A DNA stretch of 64,000 nt from Desulfohalovibrio reitneri. GTDB taxonomy: Bacteria > Desulfobacterota > Desulfovibrionia > Desulfovibrionales > Desulfovibrionaceae. A program made the translations under genes and the position numbers. This document shows positions 1 to 26,099 of this stretch, piece by piece. The number at the start of each line of letters is the position of its first letter. Positions within the stretch are counted from its first letter, which is position 1. The stretch covers positions 757,001 to 821,000 of the forward strand of contig NZ_JOMJ01000003.1 in assembly GCF_000711295.1 (NCBI RefSeq), read 5' to 3'. The notes beneath the pieces are model-generated. The model did no database searches, had not been told where the DNA came from, and saw only the letters and a program-made list of their open reading frames with translations.

Positions 1-221
1 TAGGAGCGCTTGGCGATCTCGGCGAAGAGGATGATGGTCACCCAGCGGGCGGCCGGGCCGATTCCCTGGCCGATGACCAGTTGCAGGTACATCGAGCCCG
101 GCATCATCAAGAAGCCGATGAATACGGCTCCGATCAGGGTCTTCCAATCGAAGCCCTCTTCGAATTTCTCGGGCGGCTTCAGCAGGTCCCGATATTCTTG
201 AAGTTCCTTGTCGTCGTGCAT
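1..221 (-). CDS. OPT/DUF6785-like membrane transporter, N-terminal part only (runs off left edge)
   Basis: Only the first 73 or so codons are in the window; the ATG is at 221-219 on the minus strand. The N-terminus is short, charged and cytoplasmic (about 25 residues, starting MHDDKELQEYRDLL). It is followed by a hydrophobic stretch containing GSMYLQLVIGQGIGPAA and then FAEIAKRS, the sort of start seen in OPT/DUF6785-type multi-membrane transporters. It begins 14 bases after the stop of the 660-residue transporter upstream and is almost certainly its operon partner, so the locus would carry two related transporters. Family assignment rests on these segments and the context; substrate is unknown. 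Confidence 0.6.
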   Translation of the reverse strand, partial: MHDDKELQEYRDLLKPPEKFEEGFDWKTLIGAVFIGFLMMPGSMYLQLVIGQGIGPAARWVTIILFAEIAKRS

Positions 222-235
222 TCGCTCGTCCCGAA

Positions 236-2218
236 TCAGTCAGGCAGGACCTGGTAGGTCAGGCCGGTCTCCATGCTGACCAGCGCCCATATGCCGCCCA
301 TGAGAAAGTCGCCCAGTATGAGGCCGAAGAACAGGAAGCGCACCTTGCGGTAGAGGTTGATGCCGCCGTAGCGCAGGCAGAGCTGATTGGCGGCCCAGCC
401 CACCAGAAAGTTGAACCACAGGTAGCGCATGGCCGTTGAATAGATGACCAGGTAGCCGATGGGGTGCAGCGGCCACCAGTAGAAGCGGCGGTAGCAGAGG
501 ATGAGGGTGGTCATGACTAGGCCGCCGATGACGGCGAAGGTGATGACCCATTCCTGCGGGCCGAGGGGGGCGTCCACCAGCCGCTTGACGTTCTCGTACA
601 CGCTCATGGTGGTGCGCTGGGCCCAGATGAGTTCCAGTTCCCGCAGGCCGTACTTGTAGCAAAGGGCCAGCATGGCTGCGAAAGAGACCAGTACGCCGAG
701 GAAGATGACGGCCATGACGCCGATGAGCAGCAGGCGGCGGTTGCGCACACGCTCGGAGATCTTGGCGCTGTGGATGAGCGAGGGCATGAGGGATTCGCGC
801 AGATCCAGGAAAAGAACCTTTTGGGCCACCCCCGCCAGCAGCAGCCCCGCGCTGGAGAAGAACTTGGAGCCGAAGATGGCCAGCAGTCCGTCAATGGGCG
901 CGGCCGTAAGGGTGAAGTAGGCTAGGCCGCCCTGGGTGATGACCCGGCTGGCCACCAGGGTTATGACCAGGAACATGCCCACAGTGACAACGGCCGGAAG
1001 CAGGTTCATGCCGAAATAGATGCACCATCCGGCCAGCAGGCCGAAGCCGATCACAAAGCCCCAGAAGGCGGTTCGCACCTCCATCCATTCGGATTCGCTG
1101 CGCTCCACTTTGCCTCGGCTGAAGGCGCTGCGCAGAATGAAGGCGATGTGTCCGCGTCCCAGCCAAAGGAGGAAAAGGAAGAAGATGCCGTAGGCGCCGA
1201 TCATCTGGGTTTCTTCCACCATGGCCAGGGTTGGGCCGAAGGTCACGCCCAGGGCGGAGGAGGGCAGTCCCAGGCCCATGACATCGAACACGCCGAACAT
1301 GAGCCCGCCCAGCAGGTAGAAGAACCACATGGAGAAGGAAATCTGCCTCGTGGTCAGGAAGGCGAAGCCGATGAACGCCGGGTAGATGTAGATGCGCAGC
1401 TTGTAGAAGCCGGAAAAGAGCCCGTACTTGGAGAAGTATTTGCCCGCGAAGATGAAGGTGGGGATCTGAGGAATCTGCGGGTAGAAATGGTTGAGCCCGT
1501 TGATGAGGTGCAGAAAGCAGGTCAGCCCCAGCCCGATGAGGAAATAGCGGTTGGTGAAGAAGTCCTTGAGGGCGTTCTGGTCGAAGTATTCGGTCATCAG
1601 CTGCGGCAGGCGCAGCAGAGGAAAGTTGACCCGCTCGTTCTCCACCCACTGCCTAGCCACCAAGTTGGTCAGGCAGATCATCACGAAGTAGGCCAGGAAG
1701 ATGAACACGCCCCACCACAGGAAGGGGGCCACCCAGGCCGACAGCGGAGCGTTGGACAGCACCTCCAGGGGGCCCATGGTGATGCCGCCCTCGATGCCGT
1801 CGTACAATTGCTCCACCGCCTTGTTGTCCGCCGGGTAGAGCTTGTCCGGCAGCAGGGGGCCGAGTACTTCCCTGAAGCGGTTGCCCGGCGTGGCGAAGTG
1901 CAGGGGGACGGTGAGATTGAGCAGGAAGGTGCGGACAAGTCCCGTATAGGGGATGCCGGAGACCAGCACCATGAGTATCCAGGATACCAGCAGTTCCAGC
2001 CCGCGAAAGACCGGCGGCCGTCTGGTGAGCCAGGACAGTCCCGCGGTCAGCACCGTGAGCCAGATCATGATGAAGAAGGGAGCCAGGGGGAAGTGCCCGC
2101 CACCCAGCAGCGTGGCCCGCATGAGCATGTTGTTGTACGGGGTGGCCCAGGCGATGAGCAGGCCGCCCAGCACTCCGAGCAGCACGGCCCGCAGGCGTAT
2201 GGAGTTTTGCGCAGCCAT
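236..2218 (-). CDS. DUF6785/OPT-like polytopic membrane transporter
   Basis: The 660-residue product is almost entirely hydrophobic with roughly a dozen or more membrane segments. The N-terminal TM lies near residues 10-27 and a long loop near residues 105-150 holds the motif ATPGNRF. The length and the repeated aromatic membrane segments fit the DUF6785/DUF6784 group, which is distantly related to oligopeptide/metal-chelate (OPT) transporters. The gene starts 3 bases after the stop of the giant peptidase-like permease and is followed at once by a second transporter of the same type. Substrate is not known; coupling to peptides or lipopeptides is inference from the neighbours. Confidence 0.7.
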   Translation of the reverse strand: MAAQNSIRLRAVLLGVLGGLLIAWATPYNNMLMRATLLGGGHFPLAPFFIMIWLTVLTAGLSWLTRRPPVFRGLELLVSWILMVLVSGIPYTGLVRTFLLNLTVPLHFATPGNRFREVLGPLLPDKLYPADNKAVEQLYDGIEGGITMGPLEVLSNAPLSAWVAPFLWWGVFIFLAYFVMICLTNLVARQWVENERVNFPLLRLPQLMTEYFDQNALKDFFTNRYFLIGLGLTCFLHLINGLNHFYPQIPQIPTFIFAGKYFSKYGLFSGFYKLRIYIYPAFIGFAFLTTRQISFSMWFFYLLGGLMFGVFDVMGLGLPSSALGVTFGPTLAMVEETQMIGAYGIFFLFLLWLGRGHIAFILRSAFSRGKVERSESEWMEVRTAFWGFVIGFGLLAGWCIYFGMNLLPAVVTVGMFLVITLVASRVITQGGLAYFTLTAAPIDGLLAIFGSKFFSSAGLLLAGVAQKVLFLDLRESLMPSLIHSAKISERVRNRRLLLIGVMAVIFLGVLVSFAAMLALCYKYGLRELELIWAQRTTMSVYENVKRLVDAPLGPQEWVITFAVIGGLVMTTLILCYRRFYWWPLHPIGYLVIYSTAMRYLWFNFLVGWAANQLCLRYGGINLYRKVRFLFFGLILGDFLMGGIWALVSMETGLTYQVLPD

Positions 2219-17299: not shown

Positions 17300-17450
17300 G
17301 AAGCAAGCCGGGGGCGCTGTCCAGGGGTGTTATTATTTACCGCCAACGCCTTGCTCAGCGGCGTGAAACGGGTATCCTCGGCCCGGCTCATTGCAATGGA
17401 GGGCTCCTTCCACTACTTTTGCGCGGTACGTTTTAGCCAGGGAGAATGCA

Positions 17451-19505
17451 ATGCATAGTGGGATTCCGCGCGTTTGGGTCGTCATCGTCGCCACTTTGGC
17501 CGCGCTCGCGGTGGCGCACTGGCTTCGCCTGGATTGGCTCTGGGTGGTCGGGGCGGCTGCAGGGTTGGCTGGCGTCTGGTGGACCACCAGAGGCTCCGGC
17601 TGCCGGGAGGAACTGCTGGAAGCGGTGAAAAGCGCCGCCAAAGGCGAGGACGTGACGGTTGAGGACGGCTCGTCTCCGGTGGACAGGGCTCTACTGCAGC
17701 TGGCCGCCAAAACACGCGAGTGTGGGTATTACGTCAGCGCAATGCAAAGCGTGGGCAACCCCATGCTCATGTGCGACCGGTCCGGCAAGATTGTTCATGC
17801 AAGCCGATCCCTCCTGGATGTTTTGCGCAAGCCCGGGGATCGCGTTGTGGGCCAAACCGTGAGCCAGGCCTTCTATGGCAAGGATGGAGAATCCATGACC
17901 GAAGGCGTTATGGCCGAGGGCGGTGAACTGGACAAGGAAGTGGAACTCGAACTGTATGACGGCCGCGTCGTGCTGGCGCATCTGTACGTCAACTGCATCA
18001 CAAACGTCCGGGGCGAGGTGAAGGGGGCGGTAGCCTCCTTCGTGGATATTGGCGAGCAGAAGAAGGCCCAGGCCGACCTGCGGGAACAGCAGGAACGGAT
18101 GATGCGTGTGGGCAGCGACATCAGCAACCTGGCCCAGCGTGTCGCTTCCGCCGCTGAGGAGCTTTCCGCCTCGGCCGATGAGCAAGCCAGGGGGGCGCAG
18201 AGCCAAAAGGCCCAGACCGACACGGTGGCAACGTCCATGGAGCAGATGACCGCCACCGTGCTCGAGGTTGCCCAGAACGCCTCCGGCACATCTGACGCGG
18301 CGGATCAGGCCCGGGAGGCCGCCCGCGAGGGTTCCGACCTGGTCAACCAGGCGGTGGACGGAATCGAACAGGTCTCCGACTCCTCCAAGGAGCTTTCCTC
18401 GGTACTTTCCCAGCTTGACGGGCAGGCAGATGAGATCGGCCGCATCATCGGGGTCATCAACGACATCGCCGACCAGACCAATCTGTTGGCGCTCAATGCG
18501 GCCATCGAAGCGGCCCGGGCGGGCGAAGCGGGCAAAGGCTTCGCGGTGGTGGCCGACGAGGTACGCAAGCTGGCTGAAAAAACCATGGACGCCACCAAGG
18601 AAGTGGAGAACGCCATCCGCACCATTCAGGAAAGCTCTCGCACTGCGGTGGATTCCATGGACCGTACCGCGGAGCAGGTGGCGCGAAGCACCGACCTGTC
18701 CCGCAAAGCGGGCGATTCCATCTCCCGCATCCTCGACAGCGTCAACGACATGGTGGAACGCGTTTCCCAGATCGCCACCGCGGCCGAGGAGCAAAGCTCA
18801 GCCGCCGAGGAGATCAACAGCAATATCGAGGAGATCGCGGGCATCGCCCGGGAAGCGGATGACGCCGCCGGGCAGGCCGCCGGAGCCACCCGCGACCTGG
18901 CCCAGCTGTCACAGGAACTGCTGACGCTCTCCCTGGACTTTTCCGGCAAGGACACCGGCTCCAGGCTGCGCTCGTCCGAAGGGCAGATGAAGGGTGTGCT
19001 GCCCAAGCTTATGCAGGAATACGTGCGCAAGGAATACGGCGAGGACGTCTACAAGAAAGTGCAGTCCGAACTCGGCGATCCGGTCTTTCTGGCCACCGGA
19101 AGCTATCCCGACTCGGTTCTACACCAGATGGCCGAGGCGGTGGCTGACAAGGCCGGTGTGAAGAAGCGTGACGTGCTCTTCAACCTGGGCAAGCACACCG
19201 TTCCCCGCTTCCACGATATGTACCGCCGCTACTTCAAGAACCTCGGCGACCTCAAGGAATTCTACCTGTCAATCGACAGCATCCACCGCCAGCTTACCAA
19301 GGACGATCCCAGCCTCAAACCGCCCAAGTTCAGCTACGAGGACAAGGGGAACACCCTGTATATGAATTATTCCTCCTCGCGGGGCCTGTTCGACTACTTC
19401 GAGGGTATTTTGCGCAGTGCGGCGGATTTCTTCGGCCAGAAGCCGGAAATCAAGGTCAAGCCGCTGGACGACACCACGGCCAGGGCGGAGATACGTTTCA
19501 ATTAG
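17451..19505 (+). CDS. Methyl-accepting chemotaxis protein with PAS and C-terminal H-NOX (heme) domain
   Basis: I take ATG 17451 as the start (AGGGAG six bases upstream), giving 684 residues. Two short TM segments lie within residues 5-50 with almost no periplasmic part. A PAS domain follows at about 95-210. The MCP signalling hairpin spans about 210-500, with the tip [20 protein letters not shown]. Residues 513-684 form an H-NOX domain: the start [13 protein letters not shown], proximal heme ligand His612 in [13 protein letters not shown], and the heme-propionate motif YxSxR (Y640, S642, R644). Tyr649 falls where O2-binding H-NOX proteins have a distal-pocket Tyr. It is therefore a cytoplasmic gas-sensing receptor (O2 or NO). 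It leads the chemotaxis cluster. Confidence 0.88.
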
Positions 19506-19559
19506 TCCGGCGTGTGATCGCCGGTACGACACGGGGTTAGGGAATCGTTGGGAAAAGAA

Positions 19560-21359
19560 ATGGAGCAGACGGGTTCGCCGCGCGTCCTCATTTCGCTGCA
19601 TGACCTGGGCGGAAGGGCGATTGAACTGGCCCAGCGGGCAGAGGGGCTTCTGGCCCGCAGGGAGGACAACTTCCTGGAGCTGGGTTCCACGTTGCAGGAC
19701 GCCTGGTCCAGGGCATCCGGACTGGCCGAGCGGGCCGGCCGATTGTCCGAGGCGACCAGCGGCGAGGGCATGGCCGGGGCCATCGGCGACCTGGAGGCCA
19801 AACTTGAAGAGTTGACCGGCGTCTGCCGCCTGGACACCAGCGAGGACAGTCTGGAGCAGCTCGGCCGTATTCTGGACATCGTGCAGGGGCTCGACCGGTT
19901 CATCGGCGAGTTCAGGCGTATCGTCCGCAAGCTGCAGATGCTGGGCATCTCCACCCGCATTGAATCGGCCCGCCTGGGCAACCTGGGAAGCGGCTTCTCC
20001 ACCCTGGCCGACGACGTGGAAAAGCTGTCCCACACCATCGAGGAACACTCCGCGAACATTACCGAACAGTCCGGGAAGCTGCGCGACTTGGTTTGGTCGG
20101 CCCGGGAAAAGACCTCCGAGATCATGGCCACCCAACGCGGCTGCTCCGAGGAAATTATCGAACACGTCACCGAGAATCTCGGACACCTGCGCGAAGTGGA
20201 CCGCCGCTCAACGGAGGCGGCCGCAAAGCTGCCCCATCGGTCTCGGGAAATGGCAGACAACGTGGGACACGTGGTGCAGTCCATGCAATTCCACGACATT
20301 GTGCGGCAACAAATCGAGCATGTGCAGCACGCCTTGGATGACATGGGCCGGGAACTGCTCCGACGCGAAAACGAGGTGCGCGAGGTGGACGAGTCCAGCC
20401 GCAACGCCCTGGGCTTCGCCGCGGACGTGGCCCGTTTGCAGATTTCCCAGGTACAGAACGCGCATGAACGGTTCGGAACCGCGGTGGAGACAATTCGCGA
20501 CAACCTGCGCGGTGTGGCCCTGGGGGTTCGCCGCATCGTGGACGAGGCGGCCTCCGTATTGGAGGCTGGAAGTGATGACGGCAAGACCTCGGTGTTGGAG
20601 CGCATCGAAGAAGGCATCTTCGAGGTTATGTCCGGCATCAGGGCCTTCGCCGACCAAGGGAGGGACATGGCCGATTTGATGCGGGACGTGGCCGGCACGG
20701 TGTCCGCCATGTCCGGCTTCGTCACCGACATCGAGGACGTTGGCTCCGAGATCGAACTCATCGCCCTCAACGCCAGCGTCAAGGCGGCACACACGGGCGA
20801 GGAGGGCGCTGCCCTCGGCGTTCTGGCGACCTCCATCCAGACTCTTTCCGTGGAGGCGCGAAGGGAGACGGATTCCGCCAGCACCGTTCTGCGTCAGGTG
20901 TCCGAAGCTTCCCGCACGCTGCAGGAAAACGCGGAAAGCTACATGGATACTTCCGGTGTTGAGGAAATGCTGGAGAAACTCAACAGCCTCATCGACAGGA
21001 TTCGGGGGATGAACTCCGGGGTCAGGGGGGCCTTCGACGATTTGCGGTCCACGGGTGAGCGGCTGGCCGGTGACGTCGAGGAGGTGGCGGAGTCCGTCGA
21101 CTTTCATGAGGATGTCTGCCACGACCTGCGCACTCTGGAAACGGCCCTGCGCGAAATGGAGGATGAGGCCCGGGACCTGGTGCCGGCCAACGACGACGAA
21201 TCCCGGCCCCAGCGACTGCGGGAAATGCTCTCCACCTACACCATGGAGGCGGAGCGGGACATCTACCGCAAGACCTTCGAAATGGAAGACGAACCGGAGA
21301 GCCATCCCGAGGTGTTCGAGGAGGAAGGCGAGTTCGGCGACAACGTGGAGCTGTTCTGA
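19560..21359 (+). CDS. Soluble MCP-like coiled-coil chemotaxis protein with a CheZ-like DxxxQ motif
   Basis: The product is 599 residues from ATG 19560; a TTG at 19548 is an alternative. There is no TM segment or signal peptide. The protein is almost wholly helical with long coiled coils. Two stretches resemble MCP hairpin tips: GISTRIESARLGNLGSGFST and LIALNASVKAAHTGEEGAAL. Between them, MQFHDIVRQQIEHV has the DxxxQ spacing (D246, Q250) of the CheZ phosphatase active site, and a weaker copy (VDFHEDVCHDL) follows the second hairpin. It overlaps the STAS gene by one base. It could be a soluble receptor, a scaffold or a CheY phosphatase; the sequence alone does not decide. Confidence 0.6.
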   Translation: MEQTGSPRVLISLHDLGGRAIELAQRAEGLLARREDNFLELGSTLQDAWSRASGLAERAGRLSEATSGEGMAGAIGDLEAKLEELTGVCRLDTSEDSLEQLGRILDIVQGLDRFIGEFRRIVRKLQMLGISTRIESARLGNLGSGFSTLADDVEKLSHTIEEHSANITEQSGKLRDLVWSAREKTSEIMATQRGCSEEIIEHVTENLGHLREVDRRSTEAAAKLPHRSREMADNVGHVVQSMQFHDIVRQQIEHVQHALDDMGRELLRRENEVREVDESSRNALGFAADVARLQISQVQNAHERFGTAVETIRDNLRGVALGVRRIVDEAASVLEAGSDDGKTSVLERIEEGIFEVMSGIRAFADQGRDMADLMRDVAGTVSAMSGFVTDIEDVGSEIELIALNASVKAAHTGEEGAALGVLATSIQTLSVEARRETDSASTVLRQVSEASRTLQENAESYMDTSGVEEMLEKLNSLIDRIRGMNSGVRGAFDDLRSTGERLAGDVEEVAESVDFHEDVCHDLRTLETALREMEDEARDLVPANDDESRPQRLREMLSTYTMEAERDIYRKTFEMEDEPESHPEVFEEEGEFGDNVELF

Positions 21360-21679
21360 TGGGCGGATACACCCTGGAAAGCGGCGAGGGCGCCACCAGG
21401 CTGCTTCTGGACGGGGATTTCGGCGTGCAGGACTCGGATGAGCTGCGCTCCGTTCTGCATGATGCCCTCGTCGGTGGAGACGGCTTGGCCGTGGATTTGT
21501 CCGGCGTCGGCCGCGTGGATCTGACTTTTTTTCAACTGCTCGAATCGGCCGCCAAGACCGCCGGGAACATGGGCAAGGCCTATTCCCTGGAGAGCCCATC
21601 CGGCGACGTGCTGGACGAGGCCAAGAGGCACGGCATAGCGGGTGGCGGCTGTCAAATAAGCAAGATGCTTGGAGGCTGA
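21359..21679 (+). CDS. STAS-domain protein of the chemotaxis operon
   Basis: The 106-residue single-domain protein has the STAS/anti-sigma-antagonist fold outline: LLLDGDFGVQDSDELR, then LAVDLSGVGRVDLTFFQLLE. The usual phosphoacceptor DSSG is DLTF here, so a Thr rather than a Ser would be the only nearby hydroxyl. Small STAS proteins are common in deltaproteobacterial chemotaxis operons, but their role there is not settled. It overlaps the upstream stop by one base and ends one base before the cheY ATG. Confidence 0.75.
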   Translation: MGGYTLESGEGATRLLLDGDFGVQDSDELRSVLHDALVGGDGLAVDLSGVGRVDLTFFQLLESAAKTAGNMGKAYSLESPSGDVLDEAKRHGIAGGGCQISKMLGG

Positions 21680-21680
21680 C

Positions 21681-22043
21681 ATGGCCAAGACGATCATGAC
21701 CGTGGACGATTCCGCCAGCGTGCGGCAGATGGTTTCCATGACTCTCAAAAACGCCGGGTACGACGTTATTGAAGCGGGTGACGGCAAGCAGGCCCTGGGA
21801 AAACTGGGCGGTCCCGTGGATATGATCGTGACCGACCTAAACATGCCCAACATGGATGGTATCGAGTTGATCCGCCAGGTCCGGGCCAATCCCAAGTACA
21901 AGTTCATCCCCATCGTCATGCTGACCACCGAATCCCAGGCCGGCCGGAAGCAGGAGGGCAAGGCAGCCGGAGCCACTGGCTGGATCGTCAAGCCCTTCAA
22001 GCCCGATCAGCTTCTTGGTGTTGTGCAGAAGGTCCTTCGCTAA
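21681..22043 (+). CDS. cheY: CheY-type single-domain response regulator
   Basis: The 120-residue receiver domain starts at ATG 21681 (GGAGG six bases upstream; a TTG at 21669 is less likely). The acidic pocket is D9-D10, the phosphoacceptor D52 is in VTDLNMPNMDG, the switch Thr is in VMLTTES, and the Lys is in IVKPFKP. Lying directly before cheA, it is the probable motor-binding output or phosphate sink of this pathway. Confidence 0.93.
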   Translation: MAKTIMTVDDSASVRQMVSMTLKNAGYDVIEAGDGKQALGKLGGPVDMIVTDLNMPNMDGIELIRQVRANPKYKFIPIVMLTTESQAGRKQEGKAAGATGWIVKPFKPDQLLGVVQKVLR

Positions 22044-22058: not shown

Positions 22059-24149
22059 GTGTCGCAGGAAGAACTGAACCGCCAAGCGTTCAAGGAGGAG
22101 GCCCAGGATCTGCTGGGCGAATTGGAGAACGCCCTTTTGGAGCTTGAGGAGTCACCTGGAGACGCGGATCTCATCGACCGCGTTTTCCGGGCCATGCACA
22201 CCATCAAGGGCTCCGGTGCGATGTTTGGTTTCGACGACATCGCCTCCTTCACCCACGACGTGGAAACCGTTTTCGACCGCGTCCGCAATGGCGAAGTGGC
22301 CGTGGGGCGCGAACTGCTCGACCTGACCTTGGCCGCGCGCGACCGCATCCAGGATATGCTGTTCGAGACTGAGGGCGAGGACAGGGACCCGGAGCGGTCC
22401 AAGGCGATTCTCGATGGGCTGCGCCGCTACCTCGGTGAAGCGGAGGCCGCTCCCACGCCGGAGGCCGAATCCCCGGCGGAGTCCGGGGACGAGGAATCCC
22501 GCTTCTACCGTATCCGCTTCAAGCCGCCCGAGGATATGTTCCACACTGGCGGCAATCCGGTCCACCTTCTGGACGACCTGGGCGAACTGGGCCCTTGCCG
22601 CATCCTGGCCAACCTCGAGGAAGTCCCTTGGCTCGGAGAGTGCCGGGCCGAAACGTGCTATGCTTGGTGGGACGTCATCCTCTGCACCACCGCCCCGGAG
22701 CGGGAAATCCACGACGTGTTCATGTTCGTGGAGGACGAGAGCGAGCTCGCCGTCAGCCCCATCGCCGAGCCGGAGGAACTGGAGGGGGACCAGTACAAAA
22801 AACTCGGCGAGATATTGGTCGAACGCGGCGACATAAGCGCCGATGGCCTCAAGCGGGCGCTCTCCGAGCAGAAGCGGCTTGGGGAGGTGCTCCAGGAGAG
22901 CGGACTGGCTTCGGCTGAAAGGGTTCGGTCCGCTCTGGCTGAGCAGGAGGCGGTGCAGGAGATTCGGGGGCGGCGCAAGGAATCCGAGGCCGCTTCGTCC
23001 ATCCGGGTTGCCGCCAACAAGCTTGACGATCTGGTCAATTTGGTGGGTGAACTGGTCACTGTCCAGGCGCAGATAAGCCAGAAGGTGGCCGCCAAAAAAG
23101 ATCCCGCTCTGACAGCCCTAGCCGAGGAACTGGAACGGCTGTCAGACGAACTGCGCGATTCCACCCTCGGCATCCGCATGCTCCCCATAGGCACCACCTT
23201 CAGTCGGTTCCGCCGCCTGGTGCGCGACCTGTCCGTGGAGCTCGGCAAGGAGATCGAGCTGGAGACCTCCGGGGCAGAGACGGAACTGGACAAGACGGTC
23301 CTCGAACGAATGGGCGACCCGCTCGTACACCTCATTCGCAATTCCATCGACCACGGCATCGAGCCGCCGGAGGCGCGCCGGGAAAAAGGCAAGCCGGAAA
23401 CGGGAACCATCAACCTCAGCGCGGCCCATTCAGGCGGTGAGGTGGTTGTCACCATCGAGGACGACGGCAAGGGCATGGACCCCAAGGCGCTCAAAGCCAA
23501 GGCGGTTAACCGGGGGGTGTTGTCTCCCGAGGCTGATTTGACGGACAAGGAGTGCTTCAACCTCATCTTCGAGCCCGGCTTTTCCACCGCCGAGAGCGTG
23601 ACCAGCGTTTCCGGGCGCGGCGTGGGCATGGACGTGGTCAAGCGTGCCATGGACGAACTGCGGGCAGTGGTGGAAGTGGACAGCGTCCCGGGGCGTGGAA
23701 CCGCCATATCCATCCGACTGCCCCTCACTCTGGCCATCATCGACGGGTTGCAGGTCCGTGTGGGTGGCGAGCATTACGTCATCCCCCTGGCCCTGGTTGA
23801 GGAATGCGTGGAGTTGCAAGCCCAACAGGTGTCCGGGGGGGCGAACAAGCGCATCATCGACCTGCGCGGGGAAATCGTACCCTACGTCATGGTACGTGAG
23901 TGGTTCGAGGTGCCTGGAAATCCACCGCCCATCGAGCAGGTCGTGGTTACATCCACGGAGTGGGGAAGAGTCGGGTTGGTGGTGGATTCGGTCATCGGAG
24001 AGCACCAGACCGTCATCAAGTCGTTGGGCCGTGTCTACCGTGATGTGGAGGGCCTTTCCGGGGCGACCATCCGGGGCGACGGGAGTTTGGCCCTCATTCT
24101 GGACGTGCCCCGGTTGGTGCGGTCGGCGGCCCAGGAGGCCCAGCGGTGA
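22059..24149 (+). CDS. cheA: Chemotaxis histidine kinase CheA with tandem MshEN-like repeats
   Basis: The 696-residue kinase uses a GTG start. The Hpt domain carries phosphoacceptor H47 (MHTIKGSG). A P2-like or unassigned domain lies at about 145-240. Two adjacent 24-residue repeats follow at 248-271 and 273-296, of the form [KR]LGExL..xG...... ending in ALxEQ. Then come the P3 dimerisation helices (about 310-370), the HATPase core (N-box HLIRNSIDHGIEPPE, G1 DDGKGMD, G2 GRGVGMDVV) and a P5/CheW-like domain (about 545-690). No separate cheW is in the window. The stop overlaps the cheR start by 4 bases. The repeats resemble the c-di-GMP-binding MshEN (type II secretion ATPase N-terminal) motif, which would be an unusual input for a CheA. 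Confidence 0.93.
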   Translation: MSQEELNRQAFKEEAQDLLGELENALLELEESPGDADLIDRVFRAMHTIKGSGAMFGFDDIASFTHDVETVFDRVRNGEVAVGRELLDLTLAARDRIQDMLFETEGEDRDPERSKAILDGLRRYLGEAEAAPTPEAESPAESGDEESRFYRIRFKPPEDMFHTGGNPVHLLDDLGELGPCRILANLEEVPWLGECRAETCYAWWDVILCTTAPEREIHDVFMFVEDESELAVSPIAEPEELEGDQYKKLGEILVERGDISADGLKRALSEQKRLGEVLQESGLASAERVRSALAEQEAVQEIRGRRKESEAASSIRVAANKLDDLVNLVGELVTVQAQISQKVAAKKDPALTALAEELERLSDELRDSTLGIRMLPIGTTFSRFRRLVRDLSVELGKEIELETSGAETELDKTVLERMGDPLVHLIRNSIDHGIEPPEARREKGKPETGTINLSAAHSGGEVVVTIEDDGKGMDPKALKAKAVNRGVLSPEADLTDKECFNLIFEPGFSTAESVTSVSGRGVGMDVVKRAMDELRAVVEVDSVPGRGTAISIRLPLTLAIIDGLQVRVGGEHYVIPLALVEECVELQAQQVSGGANKRIIDLRGEIVPYVMVREWFEVPGNPPPIEQVVVTSTEWGRVGLVVDSVIGEHQTVIKSLGRVYRDVEGLSGATIRGDGSLALILDVPRLVRSAAQEAQR

Positions 24150-25021
24150 ACGAGGCGTCCAAGGGACGGGACGTGGAACGGCGTGGCGGTAGCTGCCGCC
24201 TCGGTCTGCGCGAGAAGGACTTCAAGCGATTCGCGGCCTTCATTCACGACGAGTGCGGCATCAAAATGCCGCCCACCAAGCGGACCATGCTCGAGGCGCG
24301 GCTGCAGAAACGTCTGCGTGTTCTGGGCCTGGCGGATTACGCAGAGTACTGCGAGTTCGTTTTCAGTCCGGAAGGAATGGAGACGGAGCTGCACCACCTG
24401 CTCGACGTCGTGACCACCAACACCACGGACTTTTTCCGGGAGCCCAAGCACTTCGAAACGCTGGCAAACGTCCTGCTGCCCCAGTGGTCGGCCGCCACTG
24501 GCAACCGGCGCGAATACCGGGTCTGGAGCGCGGGCTGCTCCACCGGTGAAGAGCCCTACACCCTGGCCATGGTGCTCAGCGACTACGCCGAGTCGTCAGA
24601 GGGATTCGACTTCAAGGTTTTGGCCACGGATATTTCCACCCGGGTGCTGCAACACGCGGCCAAGGCCGTCTACACCGTGGACAAGGTGTCCAAGGTGCCG
24701 CAACGCCTCAAGTCCCGCTACCTGCTGCGCTCCAAGGACCGGACGAAGCAGCTGGTTCGAATGGTCCCGGAGGTGCGGCGGCGCGTCATCTTCCGCCGTC
24801 TCAACTTCATGGGCGATTTTAAGCTCAAGAAGCCGCGTGACGCCATTTTCTGCCGCAACGTCATGATTTATTTCGAACGCCCCACCCAGGAAAAGCTGCT
24901 GGGCAAACTCTGCGACAACCTCATCCAGGGCGGCCACCTGTTCATCGGCCACTCCGAGAGCCTGACCGGCCTCGATCTTCCCCTGGAGCAGGTTGCGCCG
25001 ACCGTCTATCGCCGGGTGTAA
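24146..25021 (+). CDS. cheR: Chemotaxis receptor methyltransferase CheR
   Basis: The 291-residue enzyme methylates receptor glutamates using SAM. It has an N-terminal helical domain and then [17 protein letters not shown] as the SAM-binding motif. [13 protein letters not shown] follows, then [20 protein letters not shown] and the C-terminal LFIGHSESL. All are canonical CheR signatures. The GTG start lies in the overlap with the cheA stop. With CheB downstream it forms the adaptation module for the MCPs here. Confidence 0.93.
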
Positions 25022-25031
25022 GGTCCGCCTC

Positions 25032-26099
25032 ATGTCCAAGCCCATTCGCGTCATGGTGGTGGATGACTCGGCCCTGGTCCGCCAGACCCTCTCCGATATT
25101 TTCTCCAGCGACCCGGACATCGAGGTCATGGCCGCGGCCTCAGATCCGTACGCCGCGGTCAAGAAGATGGAGAGTGCGCTGCCCGATGTCTTGACCCTGG
25201 ACATCGAAATGCCCCGCATGGACGGCCTGACCTTCCTGCGCAAGATCATGAGCCAGAACCCCATTCCGGTAATCATCTGTTCCACTCTGGCGGGCGAGGG
25301 TAGCGAAGGGTGGGTCAAGGCCATGGAATACGGAGCGGTGGACGTCATCACCAAGCCAAAGGTCGGCACGCGCAAGTTCTTCGAGGAGTCGCGCATCCGC
25401 ATCTGCGATGCGGTCAAGGCGGCGGCCAGCGCCAAGCTGAACAGGCTCAAGCCGCGCAAGGCGGTTGCGGTGGAGCCGAACCTTTCCGCCGACGCCGTGC
25501 TTCCCAAGGGGCGGCTGCGCGAGATCAAGACCACCGAGACCGTGGTCGCTGTGGGGGCGTCCACTGGCGGCACCGAGGCCTTGCGTGTTTTCCTGGAGGC
25601 CATGCCTGAAAACGCTCCGGGCATCGTCATCGTGCAGCACATGCCGGAAATGTTCACCGCCGCCTTTTCCCAGCGTCTGAACACCATCTGCCGCATCACC
25701 GTCCGGGAGGCGGTGAACAACGACACCATTCTCCGTGGGCAGGCGCTCATCGCTCCGGGCAACAAGCACATGCTGGTCAAACGCTCCGGCGCACGGTCCT
25801 ACGTGGAAGTTAAGGAAGGTCCGCTGGTTCGCAGGCACCGCCCGTCGGTGGACGTTCTGTTCCGCTCCGCCGCGCGCTACCTGGGCAAGAACGCCGTGGG
25901 CGTCATCATGACCGGAATGGGCGACGACGGGGCCCAGGGAATGCTGGAGATGCGACAGGCCGGGGCATTCACCATCGCCCAGGACGAAGCCACTTGCGTG
26001 GTTTACGGCATGCCCGGGGAGGCGGTGAAACTTGGCGGAGTGGAAAAGATTCTGCCTTTGGAGCGAATTCCCCTGGAGGTGGTGCGTGCCGCCCGTTGA
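25032..26099 (+). CDS. cheB: Chemotaxis protein-glutamate methylesterase CheB
   Basis: The product is 355 residues from ATG 25032 (AAGGT eight bases upstream); an upstream in-frame extension would run into cheR. The receiver domain has D11-D12 and phosphoacceptor D57 ([11 protein letters not shown]). The C-terminal methylesterase domain has the catalytic Ser in [10 protein letters not shown], the His in VQHMPEMF and the Asp in GMGDDGAQG. It removes methyl groups from, or deamidates, MCP glutamates and glutamines. It is the last gene of the chemotaxis run. Confidence 0.93.

Follow-up and report, generated by a model that had tools for sequence, protein, structure and literature searches.

Can a chemotaxis kinase carry a cyclic di-GMP (c-di-GMP) input within its own chain? 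The question was raised by a cheA gene of Desulfohalovibrio reitneri, which lies in the 64,000-nucleotide stretch of DNA analyzed here (referred to as the window). In its product, the original prediction had placed two tandem 24-residue repeats resembling the c-di-GMP-binding motif pair of MshE-type ATPases (MshEN), separated by one residue instead of five. The coordinates and residue numbers of the repeats were found to be exact, and the features of the locus are compiled in Table 1.

Table 1. Coordinates of the CheA gene, its domains and repeats, and neighboring genes in the window
Feature	Residues	Position in the window	Strand	Basis or remark
STAS-domain protein, upstream of CheA in the gene cluster		21359..21679	+	
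CheY-like response regulator, adjoining CheA on the upstream side		21669..22043	+	
CheA histidine kinase, GTG start	696 aa	22059..24149	+	Pfam domains and signature motifs
Hpt	9-99			Pfam, above cut-off
MshEN-like motif I, KLGEILVERGDISADGLKRALSEQ	248-271 (K248-Q271)	22800..22871	+	
One-residue spacer (canonical, 5)	K272	22872..22874	+	
MshEN-like motif II, RLGEVLQESGLASAERVRSALAEQ	273-296 (R273-Q296)	22875..22946	+	
Connecting segment	297-313	22947..22997	+	Predicted (AlphaFold) to prolong the last module helix to the P3 start
P3 dimerization domain (H-kinase_dim)	313-369	22995..23165	+	Pfam, above cut-off
HATPase_c	421-557			Pfam, above cut-off
CheW domain	563-690			Pfam, above cut-off
CheR		24146..25021	+	
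CheB		24993..26099	+	

The gene product was identified as CheA from four Pfam matches (Hpt, H-kinase_dim, HATPase_c, and CheW, in this order) and from the signatures HTIKGSG (the phospho-acceptor site, starting at residue 47), RNSIDHG, DDGKGMD, and GRGVGMD. No Pfam match was found for residues ~148-240 (22500-22778), between P1 and the repeats; this segment is perhaps a P2-like domain and is covered when the closest orthologues are aligned. The gene cluster also encodes a protein with PAS, MCP-signaling, and C-terminal haem-NO-binding (HNOB) domains in this order (17391-19505; Pfam). Between this HNOB receptor gene and the STAS gene is the gene for a receptor-like protein (19548-21359) in which MCP-signal is matched by two stretches, the best of them covering residues 373-520 (62.8 bits). 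Among CheA loci carrying the repeat module, a CheY-like gene was located immediately 5′ of the kinase gene in 47 of the 77 loci with sufficient flank, and a STAS gene was located upstream in 25 of 68. Downstream, cheR was immediately next in 15 of 65 loci and cheB in 17 of 65. Apart from CheY, the neighborhood is not strongly conserved.

The predicted one-residue spacer is real. The 49-residue layout was identical in 140 of 140 CheA loci, which were the best 30 of a class search, 30 of a phylum search, and 80 named records. A peculiarity of this genome or a frame error was thereby ruled out as the origin of the short spacer. These loci were partly redundant, with the window gene represented twice, and yielded 125 distinct 49-mers from a sampling biased to close relatives. 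The segment between motif II and P3 was 17 residues long in 77 of these 125 sequences. Judged by record titles, the CheA proteins with the module come from relatives of Desulfovibrio and Geobacter, from Nitrospirae and SAR324, and from some other groups, mostly as metagenome bins. In two of the loci (L101 and L109, CheA of Nitrospirae and BMS3Abin06), an extra degenerate repeat-like stretch was observed just 5′ of motif I.

Twenty lower-scoring open reading frames, recognized as CheA-like by their P3 match, were added to this set. The motif pair stood directly before P3 in all 20, with spacers of 1 (six frames), 2 (three), 5 (three), 6 (one), 7 (five), 11 (one), and 16 (one) residues; 18 of these were parsed by script and two (L189 and L196) by eye. 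The place of the module before P3 is constant among the loci read, and the spacer length is variable. For the canonical set, spacers of five residues were found in 21 and of seven residues in three of the 24 loci parsed out of 30, the range allowed by the script being 3-7.

The NCBIfam model NF053729 (c-di-GMP_motif), which is MshE-related and has 53 positions, matched residues 248-296 of CheA at 44.4 bits (curated cut-off of 38; E = 1.1e-11), the CheA form being four residues shorter; the excised repeat region scored 49.2 bits. In an alignment of 92 sequences (A2, comprising the window CheA and 91 relatives), every member was matched by this model at E ≤ 0.001, with a best E of 3.6e-20. The model for E. 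coli-type NfrB, a cyclic di-GMP-activated glycosyltransferase, matched partially in 81 of the 92 members, with scores well short of the cut-off set for the whole protein, which is what a single domain should give. When the A2 profile was compared with PDB sequences, 14 PilF, PilB, and MshE sequences ranked before the first unrelated chain (E = 0.29). The E-values were 3.1e-23 for PilF (6f8l; for the whole chain, in three stretches), 1e-8 for PilB, and 3.1e-8 for MshE (5htl_A). An hhalign comparison with 20 canonical MshE/PilB domains gave a probability of 98.3 (E = 2.5e-14), and the sole gap was one of four residues at the spacer.

Two other families gave lower scores for the same region of the window CheA, namely DUF4388 (16.3 bits, under the cut-off of 25) and FumaraseC_C (16.0 bits, under the cut-off of 32.5). 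Weak matches to them occurred in 37 (best E of 9.9e-5) and 16 (best E of 1.8e-4) of the 92 A2 members, respectively; both were rejected as the alternative family because NF053729 matched all 92 far better. These weak matches and the short, helical, E/K/L-rich character of the sequence would be expected if the repeats were a chance or compositional similarity. Judged by the sequence comparisons, this explanation is refuted for practical purposes by the NF053729 E-value and its matches throughout A2, by the constant layout, and by the PDB-sequence search, the top of which consisted of MshEN-family chains only.

The Pfam search proposed with the original prediction gave a different outcome. Pfam MshEN (PF05157; T2SSE_N) had no match in the window CheA at E ≤ 1, in any of the 92 A2 members at E ≤ 0.01, or in the whole D. 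reitneri genome at E ≤ 0.001; the same model does match in 95 of the 99 genomes of the phylum sample. The relaxed motif pattern of Wang et al. 2016 was satisfied by motif I in 3, by motif II in 53, and by both in 1 of the 125 distinct sequences. In the window CheA, it was satisfied by neither repeat; by our reading, each departs from it at one core position, with Asp at the hydrophobic position 11 in motif I and Gln at position 7 in motif II. The tail L..AL..Q given in the original prediction was exact in the first repeat, while position 17 of the second is V289. The predicted kinship with MshEN was borne out by NF053729, the profile searches, and hhalign, and had no counterpart in Pfam MshEN or the published relaxed pattern. 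From these comparisons, we firmly regard the CheA repeats as related to the c-di-GMP motif pair of MshEN.

According to excerpts of PMC5013675 and PMC11731258, the side chain at motif position 1 of MshE and PilF lies over the guanine, whose Hoogsteen edge is hydrogen-bonded by the amides of Gly3 and the residue after it; the leucines are arranged in two clusters that each link both motifs, and two glutamines hold the ribose and phosphate. Among the 125 distinct CheA sequences, the mean entropy of the 12 ligand positions was 0.81 bits, compared with 1.82 bits for the other 37 positions (p = 0.0016, uncorrected for relatedness). Both motifs had Gly3 without exception, Gln24 of motif II (Gln296) was Gln in all 125, and Leu21 was retained in 118 (motif I) and 120 (motif II) sequences. 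Position 1 of motif I was Lys in 69, Arg in 47, and Leu in 9 (Lys or Arg in 116), and that of motif II was mainly Arg (69), Pro (28), Lys (13), or Leu (8), with neither Arg nor Lys in 43. Position 24 of motif I was Gln in 95, Lys in 14, Arg in 10, His in 5, and Gly in 1. The spacer residue was Lys in 99, Arg in 19, Gln in 5, and Pro in 2 (Lys or Arg in 118). In the window CheA, the ligand-contact positions are consensus or conservative, the only departures being K248 (Lys for Arg) and V289 (Val for Leu).

In the 20 lower-scoring CheA-like frames, read by eye, Gln24 was Gln in all 20 for motif II and in 15 for motif I. The loss of the motif I glutamine purely from a short spacer was weakened as an explanation by three loci (L194, L195, and L198) that have lost it with spacers of five or six residues. 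Gln24 of motif I and position 1 of motif II, on either side of the spacer, were found to covary (Fisher p = 9e-7, uncorrected for relatedness). Such a joint drift, with Gln24 of motif II and position 1 of motif I being kept, could mean that the ligand is a guanine nucleotide other than c-di-GMP (pGpG, GMP, GTP, or a hybrid cyclic dinucleotide), held mainly by one well-kept half-site. We consider this improbable, since all twelve ligand positions carry residue types that we judged to be binding-compatible in 74 of the 125 sequences, so that both half-sites often look intact.

The structure of CheA residues 238-315, with P3 outside the model, was predicted by AlphaFold using 92 sequences. Four helices were predicted (249-256, 261-270, 274-281, and 286-314), with a pTM of 0.55 and pLDDT of 91-96 over the motif blocks; the last helix extends to the P3 start, where the pLDDT drops to 86 and 72. 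A canonical control of equal length (L162, 20 sequences) had a pTM of 0.66 and the same mean pLDDT as the CheA module (84.4). Helix 2 spans motif positions 14-23 in the CheA model and 14-27 in the control, so that CheA lacks one turn, and in the CheA model Gln24 of motif I lies outside any helix. Foldseek with the control retrieved 5htl (E = 2.5e-4), and MshE, PilF, and PilB chains occupied ranks 1-13. With the CheA module model, Foldseek retrieved no MshEN structure at E ≤ 10, and neither did VIA-align, limited to seven chains from Foldseek. The arrangement of the CheA module may differ from that of MshEN, or the packing of the model may be wrong. As a modeling outcome, this failed recognition speaks more strongly than any other result against a simple MshEN pocket formed in cis, and the pocket geometry is uncertain because the CheA model, unlike the control, finds no MshEN structure.

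The same result, together with the short spacer, would fit a module that is derived from MshEN and is nucleotide-free, and that would, as a helical spacer or docking surface, set the position of P1/P2 with respect to P3 or provide a contact for receptors or CheW. Protein contact is also suggested by positions that do not contact the ligand in MshE and are conserved to the same degree as those that do, namely Arg9 (111 of 125) and Asp11 (115) in motif I and Ala20 (124) and Glu23 (121) in motif II. There is a precedent in PilF GSPII-A, an MshEN-family domain that, according to an excerpt of PMC12002112, remains a non-binder when the consensus motifs are rebuilt in the full domain. Against this, Gly3 of both motifs and Gln24 of motif II are without exception in the CheA set. 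The degenerate non-binder XpsE has lost G11, G40, and Q61, including both motif glycines (PMC5013675, in part); by analogy, the fold can presumably do without them, and the window CheA retains the residues lost in XpsE. A nucleotide-free module is possible, and we are doubtful of it.

Because the CheA model was not recognized as MshEN while the control was, a site formed in trans was also considered. Each c-di-GMP site would then be built from motif I of one chain and motif II of its dimer partner, above the P3 bundle, the one-residue spacer being too short for the two hairpins within a chain to close on each other. If this rather unlikely arrangement were true, c-di-GMP would staple the CheA dimer at the root of the signaling helices, and a second-messenger switch would exist in the chemotaxis kinase across several phyla.

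The genome of D. reitneri has 23 GGDEF matches and five flagellin matches, and GGDEF was present in all 40 of the picked genomes carrying a module CheA. This co-occurrence is weak evidence and does not discriminate, because GGDEF is common. A paralogous CheA in the same genome (C4:417281-419416) has an unrelated linker at this place, without the module, and only its P3 part was matched by a module-plus-P3 profile. Several MshEN-like repeats with five-residue spacers (read partly by eye) were observed in two other proteins of this genome, L001 (C1:48977-49303) and L002 (C3:348255-348575).

Our preferred explanation, which on balance we regard as probable, is that CheA residues 248-296 are an MshEN_N-derived module through which c-di-GMP would act at the dimer interface of CheA. 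The analysis establishes that the repeats exist, that they are homologous to the MshEN motifs, that they precede P3, and that they are conserved; ligand binding, its geometry across a one-residue spacer, and an effect on the kinase are inferred. The module would bind a guanine cyclic dinucleotide, most likely c-di-GMP. K248 and R273 would cover the bases, which would be read by the backbone amides of G250 and G275; L249, L264, L268, L274, V289, and L293 would form the stacking clusters; and Q271 and Q296 would hold the ribose and phosphate. Since the fourth predicted helix of the module reaches the P3 start, we propose that a ligand near Q296 would alter how the paired P3 helices are packed or phased and that autophosphorylation would be turned up or down as a result.

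Motor brakes are one route of c-di-GMP action on motility. Should c-di-GMP bind to the module, the messenger of the motile-to-sessile transition would act on the chemotaxis kinase itself, a route beyond the receptors or CheR partners of which the consulted excerpts of the literature hold examples. Given the spread of the module, the outcome of a single binding experiment would be relevant to a large set of environmental bacteria. A further question is how short the linker between the half-sites can be before binding is lost or takes place across two chains.

The pairing of MshEN with CheA is itself not new, as its association with CheA and CheX is stated in one sentence of Wang et al. 2016 (PMC5013675, in part). 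Among the matches listed by a literature search covering few subscription journals, titles and the beginnings of abstracts contained no test of an MshEN-bearing CheA. Excerpts of PMC5013675 describe MshEN_N as the four-helix, two-motif half of MshEN, which is sufficient alone for c-di-GMP binding; isolated MshEN_N (residues 1-62 of MshE) binds at 0.35 µM. For PilF, excerpts of PMC11731258 report that GSPII-B, with K167 and L196 at position 1 of its motifs, binds at 6 nM and that a Lys-to-Arg replacement at position 1 weakens this 25-fold. Single Gln-to-Glu replacements in GSPII-B gave 460 and 950 nM, and the double replacement abolished binding. GSPII-C, in which position 1 includes P335, is also a measured binder, so that Lys, Leu, and Pro at this position all have precedents among domains known to bind.

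The MshEN_N of Vibrio cholerae MshE (5htl; PMC5013675, in part) has two 24-residue motifs with the same contact positions as CheA. The CheA form differs from it in its spacer of one residue instead of five, in the Asp that occupies motif I position 11, and in having P3 directly after the motifs with no sign of the MshEN_C subdomain; its module is part of a kinase rather than an ATPase, and its binding is putative. GSPII-B and GSPII-C of Thermus thermophilus PilF (PMC11731258, in part) are the best match among PDB sequences, and GSPII-B shares the Lys at position 1 of motif I with the window CheA. They differ from CheA in their longer spacer (seven residues in GSPII-C, from the alignment) and in belonging to a traffic ATPase with C-terminal subdomains.
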